Shown here: positions 46,350 to 58,641 of the stretch, in pieces
How positions within the stretch are numbered: position 1 is the stretch's first letter
How the letters are laid out: the number at the start of each line of letters is the position of its first letter
NCBI GenBank assembly: GCA_945870185.1
Contig: CAMBRK010000017.1
Location: 1 to 64,000 of the forward strand
From: Aureispira sp. CCB-QB1
Lineage (GTDB): Bacteria > Bacteroidota > Bacteroidia > Chitinophagales > Saprospiraceae
Length of the DNA: 64,000 bases
Direction of reading: 5' to 3'
The notes under the pieces: generated by a model
Seen by the model: the letters and a program-made list of their open reading frames with translations, nothing else
The model's database searches: none
What the model was told of the DNA's origin: nothing
Program-made: the position numbers and the translations under genes

Positions 46350-47690
46350 CTAATTATCAGGAACAGGGGAATCACCTGAATCATAGCTCTTTATAAACAC
46401 TTCATAGACAAACACTGTATAAACCACCACATACTCCAAAGCTATCCAACCCATGTTTTCTTTAACCGGACTCACACTGTACGCACTATAACTTAGTATG
46501 ATCAAAAAACTCCAAAATATCGGAAATCTGTACTTGGAAAATAGGCTCAGCAACACTACATTGATAATATACCAAGGGTGGATGGTGGTAGAAATAAAAA
46601 AGTATATCGTCAGTACTAATAAGCCATATCTCAGTAGGGATGCAATGGTATGGTTTTTTTTGACCGATGAAAAGTAGAGCACCGTAAAAATGGTAATCCA
46701 TGGCGTCATCCTTCCAAATATCTGTATGATATTGTAGCCCAAAGTCTGAAAACCTAGCTCCCGGATCAAATAGTACAAACTAGCATTAAACTCAAAATTG
46801 GTAAACCACAGCGCTATCGTTTTGGTGTAATTATGCCATAAGGCTTCGCTCACAAAAGGAATAAAAAGCAATACATTGATACCCCCGATGATCGCGTAAA
46901 AAACGACTCTTTTTCTTAGACCTAAATATTGAAAAAATAAAGGTAGTAGCAATAAAGGTAGCAACTTGGTAGAAATAGAAAGACCAATCAAAAGGCCCGC
47001 CAATAGGATTCGATTTACCGTAAGGAAATACATGCCCGCAATAAAGAAAAATAGCATCACACCTTCAAAATGTAGGTTTCCGGTCAGCTCTGTGATCACT
47101 AGTGGATTTAGAAAATACCAAAATATATTTTTAGTATTGATCTTTAAGTAGGTTAGTATTTTTCTTCCGTAATGATAAATTCCTATGTCGGCCAGTATGA
47201 TCGTGATACGTAAGGCTATAGTGCTTAATAAAATGGATTTGCCACCGATAAACGCTGCAATAAGAAAGAAAAATTGATTAAGCGGAGGGTAATTGGAAAA
47301 ATGTCCGGCACTCAAGCTGCCCATTTTTTGGTGCAGGAAGGCTGCATTGGGCAACGTAGTTACGTTTTGGATGATTTCATCCGGGCGAAACAAATAGGGA
47401 TTGAGTCCCAATATGGAAATATGGCCATCCCAAATAAAACGATAAAAATCCTGTGATAATACCGGAGTAGAAAAGATCAATATAGCCCGAAAAAATATAC
47501 CTGCTTGGTACCAAGTATTTTCTGAAACATCACTTCGGAGCATCAAAACCATACTGGAAAATGATATGGCAAAAATAGTCACCAACATGACAAAATCAGC
47601 CCGTTGGACAAAATATCCAAGCCCTGCATAAGCTAAAGCACTGACCAAAACCAAGGTCACTAAGGTATATTTTGAAGAAAAGGCTTTCAC
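46350..47690 (-). CDS. GT-C type polyprenyl-phosphate-dependent mannosyltransferase-like protein
   Basis: This 446-residue membrane protein has about ten to twelve helices. The early luminal loop carries SQDFYRFIWDGHISILGLNP, typical of the MptA/MptB-like and DUF2029 GT-C glycosyltransferases that use polyprenyl-phosphate sugars. Later segments include STKLLPLLLLPLFFQYLGLR and STTIHPWYIINVV. It is the last gene of a three-gene operon (spacings 1 bp) whose first gene resembles a polyprenyl-phosphate sugar synthase, which would supply its donor. The acceptor glycan or lipid is unknown. Confidence 0.8.
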   Translation of the reverse strand: MKAFSSKYTLVTLVLVSALAYAGLGYFVQRADFVMLVTIFAISFSSMVLMLRSDVSENTWYQAGIFFRAILIFSTPVLSQDFYRFIWDGHISILGLNPYLFRPDEIIQNVTTLPNAAFLHQKMGSLSAGHFSNYPPLNQFFFLIAAFIGGKSILLSTIALRITIILADIGIYHYGRKILTYLKINTKNIFWYFLNPLVITELTGNLHFEGVMLFFFIAGMYFLTVNRILLAGLLIGLSISTKLLPLLLLPLFFQYLGLRKRVVFYAIIGGINVLLFIPFVSEALWHNYTKTIALWFTNFEFNASLYYLIRELGFQTLGYNIIQIFGRMTPWITIFTVLYFSSVKKNHTIASLLRYGLLVLTIYFFISTTIHPWYIINVVLLSLFSKYRFPIFWSFLIILSYSAYSVSPVKENMGWIALEYVVVYTVFVYEVFIKSYDSGDSPVPDN

Positions 47691-47691
47691 G

Positions 47692-49173
47692 TTAGTTGGG
47701 CTTTACAGACTGATAGGTCACATAACCAAACCCTGCAAATAACAGCACATGAAATGGAAAGAATGAAAAATTGTCCAGCCAAAAGGCACTGAAAACGGCA
47801 AAACCATAATACAAAAACAAAACGCCTTCCATCAGTGCGTACTTAGAGATGTCCTTAGATATGTAGATATTTTCTTTCCACCGATCCTTGAGCGCTTCGA
47901 TATTCAATTTGGGTGTGCGAACAAATTCACTTTTTTTACCCAGAAATCCTTCTAGGACAGCTATGGTATTTTGGTACGAAAGACCCAATGCTATGGACAT
48001 AAACCCAAAGAATAGCACAAAATAGGTAAAGAAATTTTTGATGGAAAAGCCCTGAATATTTTTGTACGGCACCCAATACGTAAAAAAGTAAATGATCGTC
48101 GTAATGAAAAAAAAGATCATCAATCCAAAGTATGGATCAAAGGCGTCATAATGATGTTTGATATACAGTACCGGGACGCTCAGGATAGACATTACAAAAA
48201 TGCATAAAAACAAGGAACTATTCAATAAATGAAGGATGCCGTGTATCTTGGTTTTTGCAGATATCGTATCCGCAGCAACGACTCTGGAAGCCATTTTTAC
48301 AAAGTTCTGTGCGCCACCTTTGTTCCATCTAAACTGTTGAGTACGGGCGGCACTCAATATGGCAGGTAACTCAGCAGGTGTAGCCACATCTTCGAGGTAG
48401 ACAAATTTCCATTTTTTTAATTGCGCTCGATAGCTGAGGTCCAGGTCTTCAGTCAGGGTGTCGCTTTCCCAATTGCCGGCATCAAAGATACAGGATTTGC
48501 GCCAGGCTCCTGCCGTACCATTAAAATTGATAAAATGATGATGCGTATTGCGACCTGTCTGCTCCAAGGTAAAGTGGGCATCCAATGCTAAGGCTTGCAC
48601 TTGGGTCAGTATAGAATGATCGCGATTGATATGTCCCCATCGGGTCTGTATCACACCCACCTTAGGATCTTTAAAGTGTGGAATGGTCTGATACAACCAA
48701 TCTTTTTCTGGTAAAAAGTCCGCATCAAATATGACGATATAGTCACCTTTGGCTGTATTAAGCCCTTCCTTGAGTGCTCCTGCTTTAAATCCCTGTCTAT
48801 TTCTTCTTCTGATATAATGTATGTCAAATCCGGCATCAGCATACTTTTGCACGAGCGAATGGGTCAGTAAAATACTGTCATCTGTGCTATCGTCCAGGAC
48901 TTGGATATCGAGTTTGTGTTTGGGGTAGTTCAGATGAGTTACCGCTTCCAACAGACGCTCTACCACATATTTTTCATTGTACAAAGGCAATTGTATGGTC
49001 ACCTGTGGTATTTCGTCCACATTGCAAAAATCAAACGTTTCCATTTTTACTTGTTTCCTCTTGCTGAGCAGGTAATTGACTAGCAGATTTAATTGTGCTA
49101 AGCTGTAGAGAAAAATCAATACAACTACCAGAAAATAAAGACCTATGATGACACAGGATATGATGAAAAGCAT
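47692..49173 (-). CDS. Processive-type family 2 glycosyltransferase (cellulose synthase-like)
   Basis: This 493-residue membrane glycosyltransferase has an N-terminal helix. Its GT2 domain carries QVLDDSTDDS, the DxD-type metal site FDADFLPEKDW, the TED base motif TEDLDLSYRAQLKKW and the product-gating QQFRWNKGG (QxxRW). Four C-terminal helices follow. It resembles the cellulose synthase/ceramide glucosyltransferase-like group (BcsA/CgtB-like), without a PilZ domain. It is the middle gene of the glycosyltransferase operon. Product unknown. Confidence 0.88.
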   Translation of the reverse strand: MLFIISCVIIGLYFLVVVLIFLYSLAQLNLLVNYLLSKRKQVKMETFDFCNVDEIPQVTIQLPLYNEKYVVERLLEAVTHLNYPKHKLDIQVLDDSTDDSILLTHSLVQKYADAGFDIHYIRRRNRQGFKAGALKEGLNTAKGDYIVIFDADFLPEKDWLYQTIPHFKDPKVGVIQTRWGHINRDHSILTQVQALALDAHFTLEQTGRNTHHHFINFNGTAGAWRKSCIFDAGNWESDTLTEDLDLSYRAQLKKWKFVYLEDVATPAELPAILSAARTQQFRWNKGGAQNFVKMASRVVAADTISAKTKIHGILHLLNSSLFLCIFVMSILSVPVLYIKHHYDAFDPYFGLMIFFFITTIIYFFTYWVPYKNIQGFSIKNFFTYFVLFFGFMSIALGLSYQNTIAVLEGFLGKKSEFVRTPKLNIEALKDRWKENIYISKDISKYALMEGVLFLYYGFAVFSAFWLDNFSFFPFHVLLFAGFGYVTYQSVKPN

Positions 49174-49174
49174 A

Positions 49175-49867
49175 CTATTTTTTTATAGAGTATTTGATGA
49201 TCCAACCAATAATTTTTATACCTGCCATGACAGACCCTTTTACAGTACCAGATACTTTAGAAACGCCTATTCTGTTTTTATATGGCACGAGCACCTCTAC
49301 ATACTTTAGATGATGCTTCAATGCTTTGAGCTGCATCTCTACAGTCCAGCCATAAGTGGTATCTTTCATCTTAAGTTGTAAAAACTTGTTGTATTTTATA
49401 GCTCTGAAAGGTCCCAAATCGGTGTATTTAGCGCCAAACAACATGTTCATTAAAGAAGTAGCTAGCCAGTTACCAAAAATTTGAGCTGAAGTCATAGAGC
49501 CTGGCTCTCGTAATGACTCTACTCTAGCACCAATCACAAAATCGACATCATCTTTTAATATGGGAGCAATAATATTTGTCAATTCTGCTGGATAATCAGA
49601 ATAATCTCCATCTAAAAACACAATGATATCTGGCTTGACTTCCAGACTAGCCACGTATTCAAGTCCTTTTAAGCATGCATAGCCGTAACCCTTCCTAGTT
49701 TCTTTGAGTACCGTAGCGCCTGCATTTTGGGCCACAGTGGCAGTGAGGTCGGTAGAGTTATTGTCCACCACAATGATTTCTTGCACCATGGAAGGTATTT
49801 CGGCGATCACTTTAGCTATAGCGTCGGCTTCATTATAAGCAGGTATGATGACTTTTATGTGATGCAT
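49175..49867 (-). CDS. Family 2 glycosyltransferase, polyprenyl-phosphate sugar synthase-like
   Basis: This 230-residue soluble GT2 enzyme has IPAYNEADAIAKVIAEIP, VVDNNSTDLT and the DxD site FLDGDYSDYPAEL, the pattern of dolichol-phosphate mannose synthase-like proteins. The C-terminal part has the conserved GPFRAIKYNKF and YGWTVEMQLKAL. It lacks the extra C-terminal membrane helices of some relatives. First gene of the operon, it probably charges a lipid carrier with a nucleotide sugar for the GT-C enzyme encoded last. Confidence 0.88.
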   Translation of the reverse strand: MHHIKVIIPAYNEADAIAKVIAEIPSMVQEIIVVDNNSTDLTATVAQNAGATVLKETRKGYGYACLKGLEYVASLEVKPDIIVFLDGDYSDYPAELTNIIAPILKDDVDFVIGARVESLREPGSMTSAQIFGNWLATSLMNMLFGAKYTDLGPFRAIKYNKFLQLKMKDTTYGWTVEMQLKALKHHLKYVEVLVPYKNRIGVSKVSGTVKGSVMAGIKIIGWIIKYSIKK

Positions 49868-52448: not shown

Positions 52449-54746
52449 TTACATTTTTGTAAAAGAAGTTGTGTATGTTTGGGATTCCGTGGTTAAAGTT
52501 ATAAGATAAAAGCCTGGATTTAAAAAAGATATATCTATTTCTTCATTATTAAGCAGATTAGAATATCTGTGACAACCATCAGAAGAAAATATATTGACAT
52601 TTGTTTCTTTATTGCTTTCATAACTACGTACCATAAGTGTATTGGTAGCTGGATTGGGAAATACACTAAAACGATTTGCATCGAGTAAGTCTTGAGTCTT
52701 AGAAATTTTAGAAATTTTAAAATCATCCAACAATATGGCATCAGAGTTTTCTAATGATAATTCATCAAATTCACCAACACCTTCATAATTGAACATGGAC
52801 AACCTTACTTCCCCTTTAAAGTTGGCTGGGATATTAAATTCGTGATATACACGCTTGCCCTCAGGGCTATCATAAATATAATGAGTCGTTGTTTTATCCT
52901 TATCCATCATTTCTACTTTTAAAATAGATGTCAATTTAGATAAATCTTCATCATTCAAAAAATCAAATTTAGAAGATCTAAATTGTACCAAGTCAAAAGA
53001 TAGCTTATGTGCGGTTTCTGCTGATAAATCGACACAAGCCCCAATTACAGAAGAGTTATATGGATCTAGAATATTGGGGAAATTTCTATTTAAATCAAAA
53101 CATGGTATATTCCCAAAACTAAAGTCTTCGCCCATGTTGGCTAAATATGTATCATTTTGATATTCTGCAACTTCAAAATCTCCAAATAGATTTATATTAT
53201 TTTCTAGTTCGCTCATATCATCAAAGGTCAAATGTAATGGTACTTGAGTTTCTTTTGAGTTAGAGTGCAACACGTAGGTAAAATTATTTTCGATATATGC
53301 TTCATTTTTGAGTTGACCCGTAATTTCCATAAATCCGTTTGGGAGTTCTGCTTTAATGGTAGCTATATAAGGTAAACCAGGTAATATTTCTGTTTCAGTA
53401 ATTAATTTAATTTTTTTAACCAAGTCCCCGTTGGAAGTAATTTCTACGTCAATGGAAGTGTTAGCGGGTATTGTAGTACAAGTAGGATTTTCAAAATAAA
53501 CAATTAAGGTTGACATTTTTTCAAAACACTGATTTTGTTCTGTTGTAACATAAGCTATTTGAATTTCATTTTCAAGAGGTAGGTAGTTTTCTATATAAAA
53601 TGCATATATATTATTCGATTCATTATCATCTTCGACGTTTAATTTAAATTCCAAATACTCAAATGTATATTCATCAAAATAAAGAAAATCCTCAATCTCG
53701 AATTCATAAAACCCTCCAGGTTCTAAAGAATTTGGTAGTTTGATTTCCTTCCTATAGCTAGAAAAATCTTCATCAATTTCAAATGTAGAATTAGCAGGTA
53801 TCTGTTGATTACCAAAATTTTTTAACTTAAATTTTAATGGATAAAAGCCTTCAGCAATACACGATGTTTCTACTGTAACTGATGTCTCAAAACCTATATC
53901 CATGATGTCACCTGAGTTGAAGAAAGGAAGCCCAACAGCATGCCAAGCTTCTGTCATACTTCTGAATTGCTTTGAATTTTGACCAAACAATTCTTCACAG
54001 GCGTTCATTGTTTGGATATACATATCATTATAATCGCTATTAGGACTTAAGTAAGATGTTTGTGCTAAAAATAGTACCTGAAGAATATCCATCATACTTA
54101 ATTTTTCAATGCTGTATGGTGTTCCTTCATTTTCGCTGGATCCACCTTGCATCAATAAATAAAACCAATAATTTAAAACGCCACTATTAGTATGAACATC
54201 TGCATTGTCTTCCCAAAGGTTTCCTTGATACTTTTTAGGTTGGTCGTAATCATTAGGGTTTGAAAACGATCGAAAAAGCATGCCGTATTTAGAAAGGACT
54301 ATTGTTGAGTCCATCAACCAGCTATACCCTTGTTGAGTATTTGCAAATTCAAGGGCTTTACCAAAAATATCACTGTAAGACTCATTAATCGCGCCGGACT
54401 CATCAGAGTATATCAAATCAGCATTAGCCTGTGTAATACCATGAAAAAACTCGTGCCCTACAATAGAGTATGTAGTCAATGGTCCCGTATGACAATCTCC
54501 AGAACCAAAGTATGCGTATTGCCCGTCCCAAAATGCATTTATAAAGTCTTCTTCACCTAGAGCGTACAATACAGGATTCATAGATTGGCCTAAACCATCG
54601 ATACCACTGTAATCAAAATTTTCCAGCATAAAATCATAAAAAGAGGCCGTACAATGGTGAGCATCTATGGCTACCATATGGTTTGCTTCTGCATCATCCC
54701 AAATATTATCAGCATCATCAAATAATGTTAATGACCCTGTTTTCAT
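52449..54746 (-). CDS. M4 (thermolysin-like) metallopeptidase, catalytic and C-terminal part (split gene)
   Basis: This is the downstream part of an M4 peptidase split by an in-frame stop. It carries the zinc site HEFFHGIT with the second zinc Glu in GAINESYSDIFGKALEF (about residues 103-140). Ordered immunoglobulin-like and CARDB-like beta domains follow, and a type A T9SS sorting domain closes the protein (FSVFPNPATNTLMV, NPGFYLITLTT). ATG 54746 is only the first formal start; the natural domain begins upstream, directly after the TAG, reading ILRDNSRGNGITTRS in the same frame. Without its signal peptide and propeptide this part would not be secreted. Confidence 0.9.
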   Translation of the reverse strand: MKTGSLTLFDDADNIWDDAEANHMVAIDAHHCTASFYDFMLENFDYSGIDGLGQSMNPVLYALGEEDFINAFWDGQYAYFGSGDCHTGPLTTYSIVGHEFFHGITQANADLIYSDESGAINESYSDIFGKALEFANTQQGYSWLMDSTIVLSKYGMLFRSFSNPNDYDQPKKYQGNLWEDNADVHTNSGVLNYWFYLLMQGGSSENEGTPYSIEKLSMMDILQVLFLAQTSYLSPNSDYNDMYIQTMNACEELFGQNSKQFRSMTEAWHAVGLPFFNSGDIMDIGFETSVTVETSCIAEGFYPLKFKLKNFGNQQIPANSTFEIDEDFSSYRKEIKLPNSLEPGGFYEFEIEDFLYFDEYTFEYLEFKLNVEDDNESNNIYAFYIENYLPLENEIQIAYVTTEQNQCFEKMSTLIVYFENPTCTTIPANTSIDVEITSNGDLVKKIKLITETEILPGLPYIATIKAELPNGFMEITGQLKNEAYIENNFTYVLHSNSKETQVPLHLTFDDMSELENNINLFGDFEVAEYQNDTYLANMGEDFSFGNIPCFDLNRNFPNILDPYNSSVIGACVDLSAETAHKLSFDLVQFRSSKFDFLNDEDLSKLTSILKVEMMDKDKTTTHYIYDSPEGKRVYHEFNIPANFKGEVRLSMFNYEGVGEFDELSLENSDAILLDDFKISKISKTQDLLDANRFSVFPNPATNTLMVRSYESNKETNVNIFSSDGCHRYSNLLNNEEIDISFLNPGFYLITLTTESQTYTTSFTKM

Positions 54747-54791
54747 GGATCGCGTTGTGATGCCATTTCCCCTGCTATTGTCTCTTAATAT

Positions 54792-54794
54792 CTA
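54792..54794 (-). other. In-frame TAG interrupting the M4 peptidase gene
   Basis: Both halves are in the same frame with no insertion or deletion (55469 to 54746 is a multiple of three). Fifteen sense codons separate the TAG from the next ATG. TAG ends other genes in the window (for example the FadL-like gene at 11059-11061), so it is not reassigned genome-wide. A recent Tyr (TAT or TAC) to TAG mutation, an assembly error or readthrough are the options. Confidence 0.85.
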
Positions 54795-55469
54795 TTTGTT
54801 TGGAGATATAGAATCAGTCTTTATCATTTTATTTCCATAGTAGAATGTTTTCCCAATGCCATCAGCATTTCCTTGTCTGATCAGACTTTGCGAAAAAACA
54901 ACCTTACCTTCTGGCAATGCAATGATGACTTCATATTTTCTGGTGAGCTTTTCAGATGTCACAATCCATTTTTCTGCCAATGTGTACTGACCGGAAAAAT
55001 TAGGATAGGATTTGTCTATTATGACTCTATCAATAAATTTTTGCTGCAATTTTTCATCTTTTATGTTGTATTTTTTTTGAACATATTTGACTGGGAGCGA
55101 TAACGATCTATGGGTTCTTTTATGTTTTTCATTAAGATTAATATCAATATTAGTCAAAATATTTCCTGTTATTCTGTTTACTTTTTCATCTTTACAGTGT
55201 AGGATAATAAATGTTTTATAAACGTCCAATCCTTTGTATGTTTGTTTAAATTTTTTATGAACCATGCCCGATTTAAATATACGGTCATTGACTGATAAAA
55301 AATTTATACCTTCTGAAATTCCTAAGTCTTTTCTAAATGTGTCAAAAGCTTGACTAATTTCAACGCTCTTTTCAGGCTTAATATTTACTTTTCCATTTTG
55401 GACAGATTGGGCTTGGTAGACAAAAGGTAATAATAATATACCAATAGTTAGAATTTTTTTTAACATCAT
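54792..55469 (-). CDS. M4 metallopeptidase N-terminal part: signal peptide and FTP/PepSY-like propeptide (split gene)
   Basis: This 225-residue product has a signal peptide (KILTIGILLLPFVYQAQS) and the fungalysin/thermolysin-type propeptide (FRKDLGISEGINFLSVNDRI, HKKFKQTYKGLDVYKTFIIL, then a PepSY-like region). It ends in DSISPNK and a TAG at 54792-54794. In intact relatives the sequence continues Y-x-L-x-D-x-x-R-G, and here the same frame continues I-L-R-D-N-S-R-G after the stop, so the TAG sits where the Tyr belongs. Joined, both parts make a normal secreted M4 protease of about 1005 residues. Confidence 0.88.
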   Translation of the reverse strand: MMLKKILTIGILLLPFVYQAQSVQNGKVNIKPEKSVEISQAFDTFRKDLGISEGINFLSVNDRIFKSGMVHKKFKQTYKGLDVYKTFIILHCKDEKVNRITGNILTNIDINLNEKHKRTHRSLSLPVKYVQKKYNIKDEKLQQKFIDRVIIDKSYPNFSGQYTLAEKWIVTSEKLTRKYEVIIALPEGKVVFSQSLIRQGNADGIGKTFYYGNKMIKTDSISPNK

Positions 55470-57218: not shown

Positions 57219-58256
57219 TTACATTTCCACCGCAGCCCATAGCATAAAAAGATCAAACATAGGTTCTTGCTTGAATAAGTAATATTTAGATTGGACTAAG
57301 TTTATTGGAAAAGATATAGAATTGAAAAACGCCCAAGTGATTTTGGAATTTTGGTCACCTAGACTTGCTTGCGTTTTCATATTCATGATGGTAGCTGTGG
57401 CTCCATATCCAAAGAAGACAGGGCCAGAATCATAATCAGAATCATTGGACCCATTTTCATTTTCTTTTACGATTTGGATGCCAAAGTATTGATCTACAAA
57501 GATTTTTTTATACCTATCATTGTATTGAATTACATCTGAATATGATATTTTGCTCATGCAGTAGGTCATCAAAGCACTGGATGAACCTCTAATGATGGAA
57601 TGCTGATCGCCTGCATGATTGATCAATTTGGTTGGGTGGTATGTTCCTGAAAGCTGTTTTTCAAGCCAGAGTCGTCCAATAACGCTATCCTTTATAGAAA
57701 CAATACCTATCAAATTATCTGCAGGCCAATACGAACCCTCATAAGAATCAAGCAATCTTACACTATCTTTTTGTGCTGACAGCAACCTGGATTCAATCGT
57801 TTGAGACGAAGCCAGTATTTCTTTTTGAATTTCTGAAAATTGGAACAGTGAACTTTTGGTATACGAGACCATCACGTGATTTACCCATCCATTGTAAAAC
57901 ATGCCATATGGAGGATTTATATGAGTTGGGAAATTTTTGAGTGAATTTTCAGAAAGTAAACGTTGGATACATTTGTCAACAGTTTTGGAGTATTTAGCAT
58001 TGACGTTTTCTGTTTTATTGCAATGTTCCAAGATAGAAAGTGCCAGCAAAGCATTACTGAAAACTTTGCCTTCGGGATATCTTGATTGAAGATGATCATC
58101 ATAGCCTTGGTCAAGGATGTGAGATAAATAATTTATTTGGTTTTCAGTAGATCTGTGTCTAAGACTTTTATTGAATGGAGTGGCAAAGCATATTATGAAG
58201 TATACTATAATGCACAAGAAAAAATACTTTAAAATGCTCCTTACTTTTGACTTCAT
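57219..58256 (-). CDS. Hypothetical membrane-anchored helical protein
   Basis: This 345-residue protein has a basic N-terminus and one membrane helix (ILKYFFLCIIVYFIICFATP). A long soluble helical region follows, with repeated aromatic and Gly-rich turns (HINPPYGMFYNGWVNHVMVS, SYEGSYWPADNLIGIVSIK, DSGPVFFGYGATATIMN). The spacing suggests an alpha/alpha-toroid like fold, but no family is recognised. I use ATG 58256, four bases after the preceding stop, instead of the far upstream start at 58331 that would overlap the previous gene. It is co-transcribed with the 126-residue protein. Confidence 0.65.
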   Translation of the reverse strand: MKSKVRSILKYFFLCIIVYFIICFATPFNKSLRHRSTENQINYLSHILDQGYDDHLQSRYPEGKVFSNALLALSILEHCNKTENVNAKYSKTVDKCIQRLLSENSLKNFPTHINPPYGMFYNGWVNHVMVSYTKSSLFQFSEIQKEILASSQTIESRLLSAQKDSVRLLDSYEGSYWPADNLIGIVSIKDSVIGRLWLEKQLSGTYHPTKLINHAGDQHSIIRGSSSALMTYCMSKISYSDVIQYNDRYKKIFVDQYFGIQIVKENENGSNDSDYDSGPVFFGYGATATIMNMKTQASLGDQNSKITWAFFNSISFPINLVQSKYYLFKQEPMFDLFMLWAAVEM

Positions 58257-58260
58257 TATA

Positions 58261-58641
58261 TCAATCTTTAAGAGCATTTCTCCTTGCCTCTGATAATTTC
58301 TTTTTTGTGGGATTAAAAGTTGCATACTCATCAGACTCTATCCAATCCAATTTTTGTTTTAACATTTCAATCACATCATCACTTAGATTTGTAGTAATTT
58401 CCTTTTTTAGGAATTCGATAATCCCTGATTCATTTGTTGAACCTTTTTCAACAAGATAATTGTCAATATAGACTCTACCAGGCAATTTATCTATTTCTTC
58501 ATAATATTCTGGAATCATATGTTGCATTAACCAAATCGTTTTTTCTCCCTGACTTAGATGGATAATGGAGATTACTATAGAACCACCATCCATACATACA
58601 CCCACATTCTTAATTTTACAATTGGTAAATTCAATTTTCAT
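58261..58641 (-). CDS. Hypothetical small cytoplasmic protein
   Basis: This 126-residue soluble protein has no family I recognise. It has a beta-rich N-terminal half (IEFTNCKIKNVGVCMDGGSI) and a charged helical C-terminus ending RRNALKD. A -7 box, TACATTTG (58668 to 58661 on the minus strand), predicts a 15-nt leader. It leads the operon with the membrane-anchored protein, with 4 bp between them. Confidence 0.6.
   Translation of the reverse strand: MKIEFTNCKIKNVGVCMDGGSIVISIIHLSQGEKTIWLMQHMIPEYYEEIDKLPGRVYIDNYLVEKGSTNESGIIEFLKKEITTNLSDDVIEMLKQKLDWIESDEYATFNPTKKKLSEARRNALKD

Follow-up and report, generated by a model that had tools for sequence, protein, structure and literature searches.

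The window, a stretch of 64,000 nucleotides from Aureispira sp. CCB-QB1, carries at positions 52449-55469 of the reverse strand a single frame of 1006 codons that ends in TAA and has a sole internal TAG, after codon 225. In the assembled sequence, the TAG splits the codons into 225 and 780, without an indel. The upstream open piece (54795..55469, reverse strand; 225 aa) has a Sec-type signal peptide at its start, identified by eye, the FTP propeptide motif, found by profile search, the remaining propeptide, and the beginning (approximately 27 residues) of the catalytic domain of a mature M4 metallopeptidase. The TAG itself occupies 54792..54794 (reverse strand), and the downstream open piece (52449..54791, reverse strand; 780 aa, first ATG at 54746) encodes the remaining M4 catalytic domain, a linker region, and a type IX secretion (T9SS) sorting domain, and has a normal TAA.

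The downstream piece matches Peptidase_M4 (69.5 bits) and Peptidase_M4_C (132 bits), both above the cut-off. The HEFFH motif (54441..54455, reverse strand; H113, E114, and H117 invariant), which has the zinc-binding and catalytic role in the M4 family, is intact, as is the downstream Glu. The sorting domain, Por_Secre_tail (PF18962; 52470..52664, reverse strand), scores 41 bits against a cut-off of 27. The domains, HExxH, and downstream Glu place the gene in the M4 (thermolysin) family, and the C-terminal tail, in a genome rich in such tails, marks the product as a T9SS substrate, whereas the continuous preproenzyme frame is interrupted by the TAG. The gene is an M4 member by its sequence and a broken one by its product. 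A promoter-motif search gave nothing better than two-mismatch matches.

Some further features of the genome and the window can be mentioned here. The genome contains at least 150 Por_Secre_tail domains, as many as were scored, and hence encodes a great many surface or secreted proteins of the T9SS type. In the window, a run of three glycosyltransferase-like genes, one GT87-like and two GT2-like, lies at 46350-49867 (reverse strand), two of the three ending in TAG, and an ORF of 370 aa with no Pfam match lies at 57219-58331, in the orientation of the broken protease gene.

Position of the stop within the M4 protease

When solved structures are aligned with the downstream piece, its second residue past the TAG corresponds to residue 30 of mature thermolysin (chain 1kei), which puts the TAG at approximately residue 28 of that enzyme. 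Consistent with this, the Peptidase_M4 match in the downstream piece begins at profile position 26, with approximately the first 25 positions lying upstream of the TAG. The sequence-only reading had located the TAG exactly at the boundary between the propeptide and the catalytic domain, which is not borne out by these alignments: the stop falls inside the catalytic domain, and thus neither half is a self-contained functional unit.

The catalytic domain, HExxH, and conserved Glu are shared with thermolysin and bacillolysin (MEROPS M4; PDB 1kei, 4b52), which, unlike the window gene, have no T9SS tail and are uninterrupted. The gene is also similar to intact T9SS-targeted M4 metallopeptidases of Saprospiraceae (G007:C25 and G003:C34), which have approximately 1015 aa, a signal peptide, FTP, M4 domains, and a sorting tail, and are colinear with it across the TAG site; in contrast to the window gene, they carry a sense codon there, TTT (Phe), and their gene neighbourhood differs from that of the window.

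Among 34 relatives, the column of the TAG contains 19 Tyr, 13 Phe, one Val, and one Ile, that is, an aromatic residue in 32 cases. The claim that the TAG replaces a Tyr is an inference, as the two nearest relatives have Phe. Codons for Tyr are one base away from TAG, while the Phe codon TTT is two changes away, so that an intermediate or ancestral Tyr codon at this site is likely.

Homologues and conservation of the interrupted gene

The alignment to an intact homologue is gapless through the TAG (SISPNK, the stop, and ILRDNSRG against SLAPNR, F, and VLRDLSRG); together with the translation, it bears out the initial description of one frame without an indel and with the TAG inside an M4 gene. 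In-frame neighbours alone are not rare, as the window has four other same-frame adjacent pairs, which we take to be ordinary consecutive genes; it is the homology running through the TAG that points to a broken gene, beyond chance adjacency of in-frame ORFs.

Nine genomes of the same genus, searched first, yielded two close homologues, both intact: G007:C25, the nearest relative, though too distant for synonymous sites to be compared, with approximately 40% identity to the window protease along its whole length (53% in the catalytic half), and G003:C34, with 51% identity in the catalytic half. When 398 Saprospiraceae genomes were searched, 80 of them yielded approximately 100 homologues, nearly all with frames of 1015-1090 aa, and none of them, besides the window's own, has an internal stop of this kind. 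Shorter frames (672-827 aa) were considered as further broken copies and rejected, as those fetched sit on short contigs or reach contig ends. In a separate genome collection, a first scan with the window protein alone found no relative, while a second scan, with an alignment, retrieved 80 named loci, nearly all from Bacteroidota, with Saprospiraceae MAGs as the best ones; these named relatives are mostly Saprospiraceae metagenome assemblies, which suggests that the window, too, comes from an uncultured member of the family. The proposed check of related genomes revealed no other homologue carrying the stop, and the break is private to the window's genome across all collections searched.

No neighbour gene is common to the window and the loci of the two nearest homologues or a third locus, and hence orthology is assigned from the protein alone. 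A second intact copy was not found in the same genome, the only candidate being a distant paralogue (C65; 29% identical).

Apart from the TAG, the frame of 1006 codons has no second stop and no frameshift. In a sequence with these codons, 4.2% of substitutions made at random would give a stop, and the lack of a second one limits neutral drift to approximately 70 substitutions, or 2.3% of sites (95%). If a column is considered conserved when at least 75% of other homologues agree, the window protease departs from 28 of 154 conserved columns (18.2%), between two intact relatives measured in the same way (28 of 159, or 17.6%, and 31 of 165, or 18.8%). A relative-rate count points mildly the other way: 25 changes are private to the window vs. 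10 to its nearest relative (p = 0.017 in a single uncorrected test), perhaps because of some relaxation, possibly a longer one, or only because the lineage is faster. The statement that the rest of the gene shows no decay is in line with the absence of other lesions, the conservation within the range of intact relatives, and the retained sorting domain. As there is neither an excess of deviations at conserved residues nor a second stop, the change is very young, or else a consensus error; a very recent nonsense mutation, one of the possibilities raised initially, is supported by these data and by the lack of the stop in homologues.

Termination at TAG

The PxT motif of RF1 is involved in the reading of UAG. 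RF1 is encoded full-length in this genome (495 bits, above the cut-off), with the GGQ motif and PxT in the form PKT. A search for a suppressor tRNA(CUA), suggested in the sequence-only reading, gave no CUA anticodon among the 33 tRNA genes found by scoring 150 of 318 first-look candidates, a scope in which an aberrant tRNA could be missed; PylS and the pyrrolysine system were not found in the genome. Four other ORFs of the window end in TAG and have the next in-frame stop 2, 3, 16, and 47 codons on, in agreement with the earlier remark that TAG serves as a normal stop elsewhere in the window. RF1 is normal, and TAG is a stop in this genome.

A separate observation concerns another release-factor-like protein. 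On contig C151 of the same genome (L169:606-1998), an RtcB-like gene is immediately followed by one for a short PrfH-like protein of 233 aa that contains GGQ; this gene pair, named by eye, resembles the known RtcB-PrfH ribosome-repair pair.

Origin and consequences of the interruption

The lesion is absent from homologues and is the only one in the gene, and we consider it probable that the window carries an ordinary, very recent loss-of-function nonsense allele of a secreted T9SS-tailed M4 protease. A single-base nonsense change would have inactivated the gene too recently for other decay to accumulate. Translation would be ended at the TAG by RF1, and the product, an exported propeptide with an enzyme stub, would have neither active site nor sorting tail and would probably be degraded. 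The most that internal starts, e.g., the ATG at 54746, could yield is a cytosolic protein devoid of the signal peptide and of approximately the first 40 residues of the enzyme. Both the true presence of this base in the population and the inactivity of the product are inferred. There is a smaller, though appreciable, chance that the TAG arose as an error of the consensus or of base calling, or that the assembly has fixed a minority variant, with most cells carrying the intact gene: the whole defect is one base, everything else being intact, and the genome (4.9 Mb, 99% complete) is assembled in 168 contigs and is probably metagenomic, like the named relatives. However, the assembly looks clean, with no stops inside 49 ABC_tran matches or 150 Por_Secre_tail matches, which makes widespread error unlikely while saying little about one base, and the base in question lies outside any long homopolymer.

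Programmed or otherwise useful readthrough, also suggested initially, implies that few ribosomes pass the TAG and make the full-length secreted protease, so that its activity is kept low. The intact downstream coding sequence fits this explanation, and so does the base after the TAG, which is A: since bacterial termination tends to be stronger with +4U (PMC5289835), slight basal readthrough at UAG-A is possible. There is published evidence that in-frame stops occur widely in bacterial genes, frequently under purifying selection (PMC7918605), and that readthrough takes place in E. coli, albeit with low average rates in TAG reporters, the mean at each of four temperatures being below 1 percent of the wild-type signal (PMC11126739, figure legend). 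Like the bacterial genes with in-frame stops, the window gene has a single stop and a coding sequence that is otherwise conserved, but the stops kept there are common to two or more species (PMC7918605), whereas the window stop occurs in one genome only and is conserved in no relative. RF1 is canonical, no decoding apparatus was found (no CUA anticodon among the 33 tRNA genes from the 150 candidates scored, and no PylS), and a downstream RNA signal was rejected, as the 141 nt around the TAG fold about as well as shuffled sequences (z = -1.13). Regulated readthrough is thus improbable; the same low probability is assigned to basal or condition-dependent readthrough at UAG-A that would yield a little active secreted protease, in which case the allele would be expressed at a low level instead of being null. 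Even less probable is a split pair, with the propeptide and the protease now encoded by two separate genes. Propeptides of the thermolysin family are able to act in trans, and an ATG lies at 54746, but the cut lies inside the catalytic domain and not at its boundary, the downstream piece has neither a signal peptide nor approximately the first 40 residues, and no relative is split. Finally, reassignment of TAG to a sense codon, for which nothing but the open frame past the TAG speaks, was rejected as very unlikely given RF1, the lack of a CUA anticodon among the 33 tRNA genes from the 150 candidates scored, and the TAG-ended ORFs of the window.

Under the favoured explanation, a recent nonsense allele, the finding is an ordinary one, of a kind already known, and as such matters little, since bacterial genomes commonly contain single nonsense alleles and the assembly may be in error here. 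If readthrough were shown, the gene would offer a natural example of low-expression alleles for a public-good enzyme, and, if true, this would be of interest for studies of translation fidelity and of the loss of secreted enzymes.
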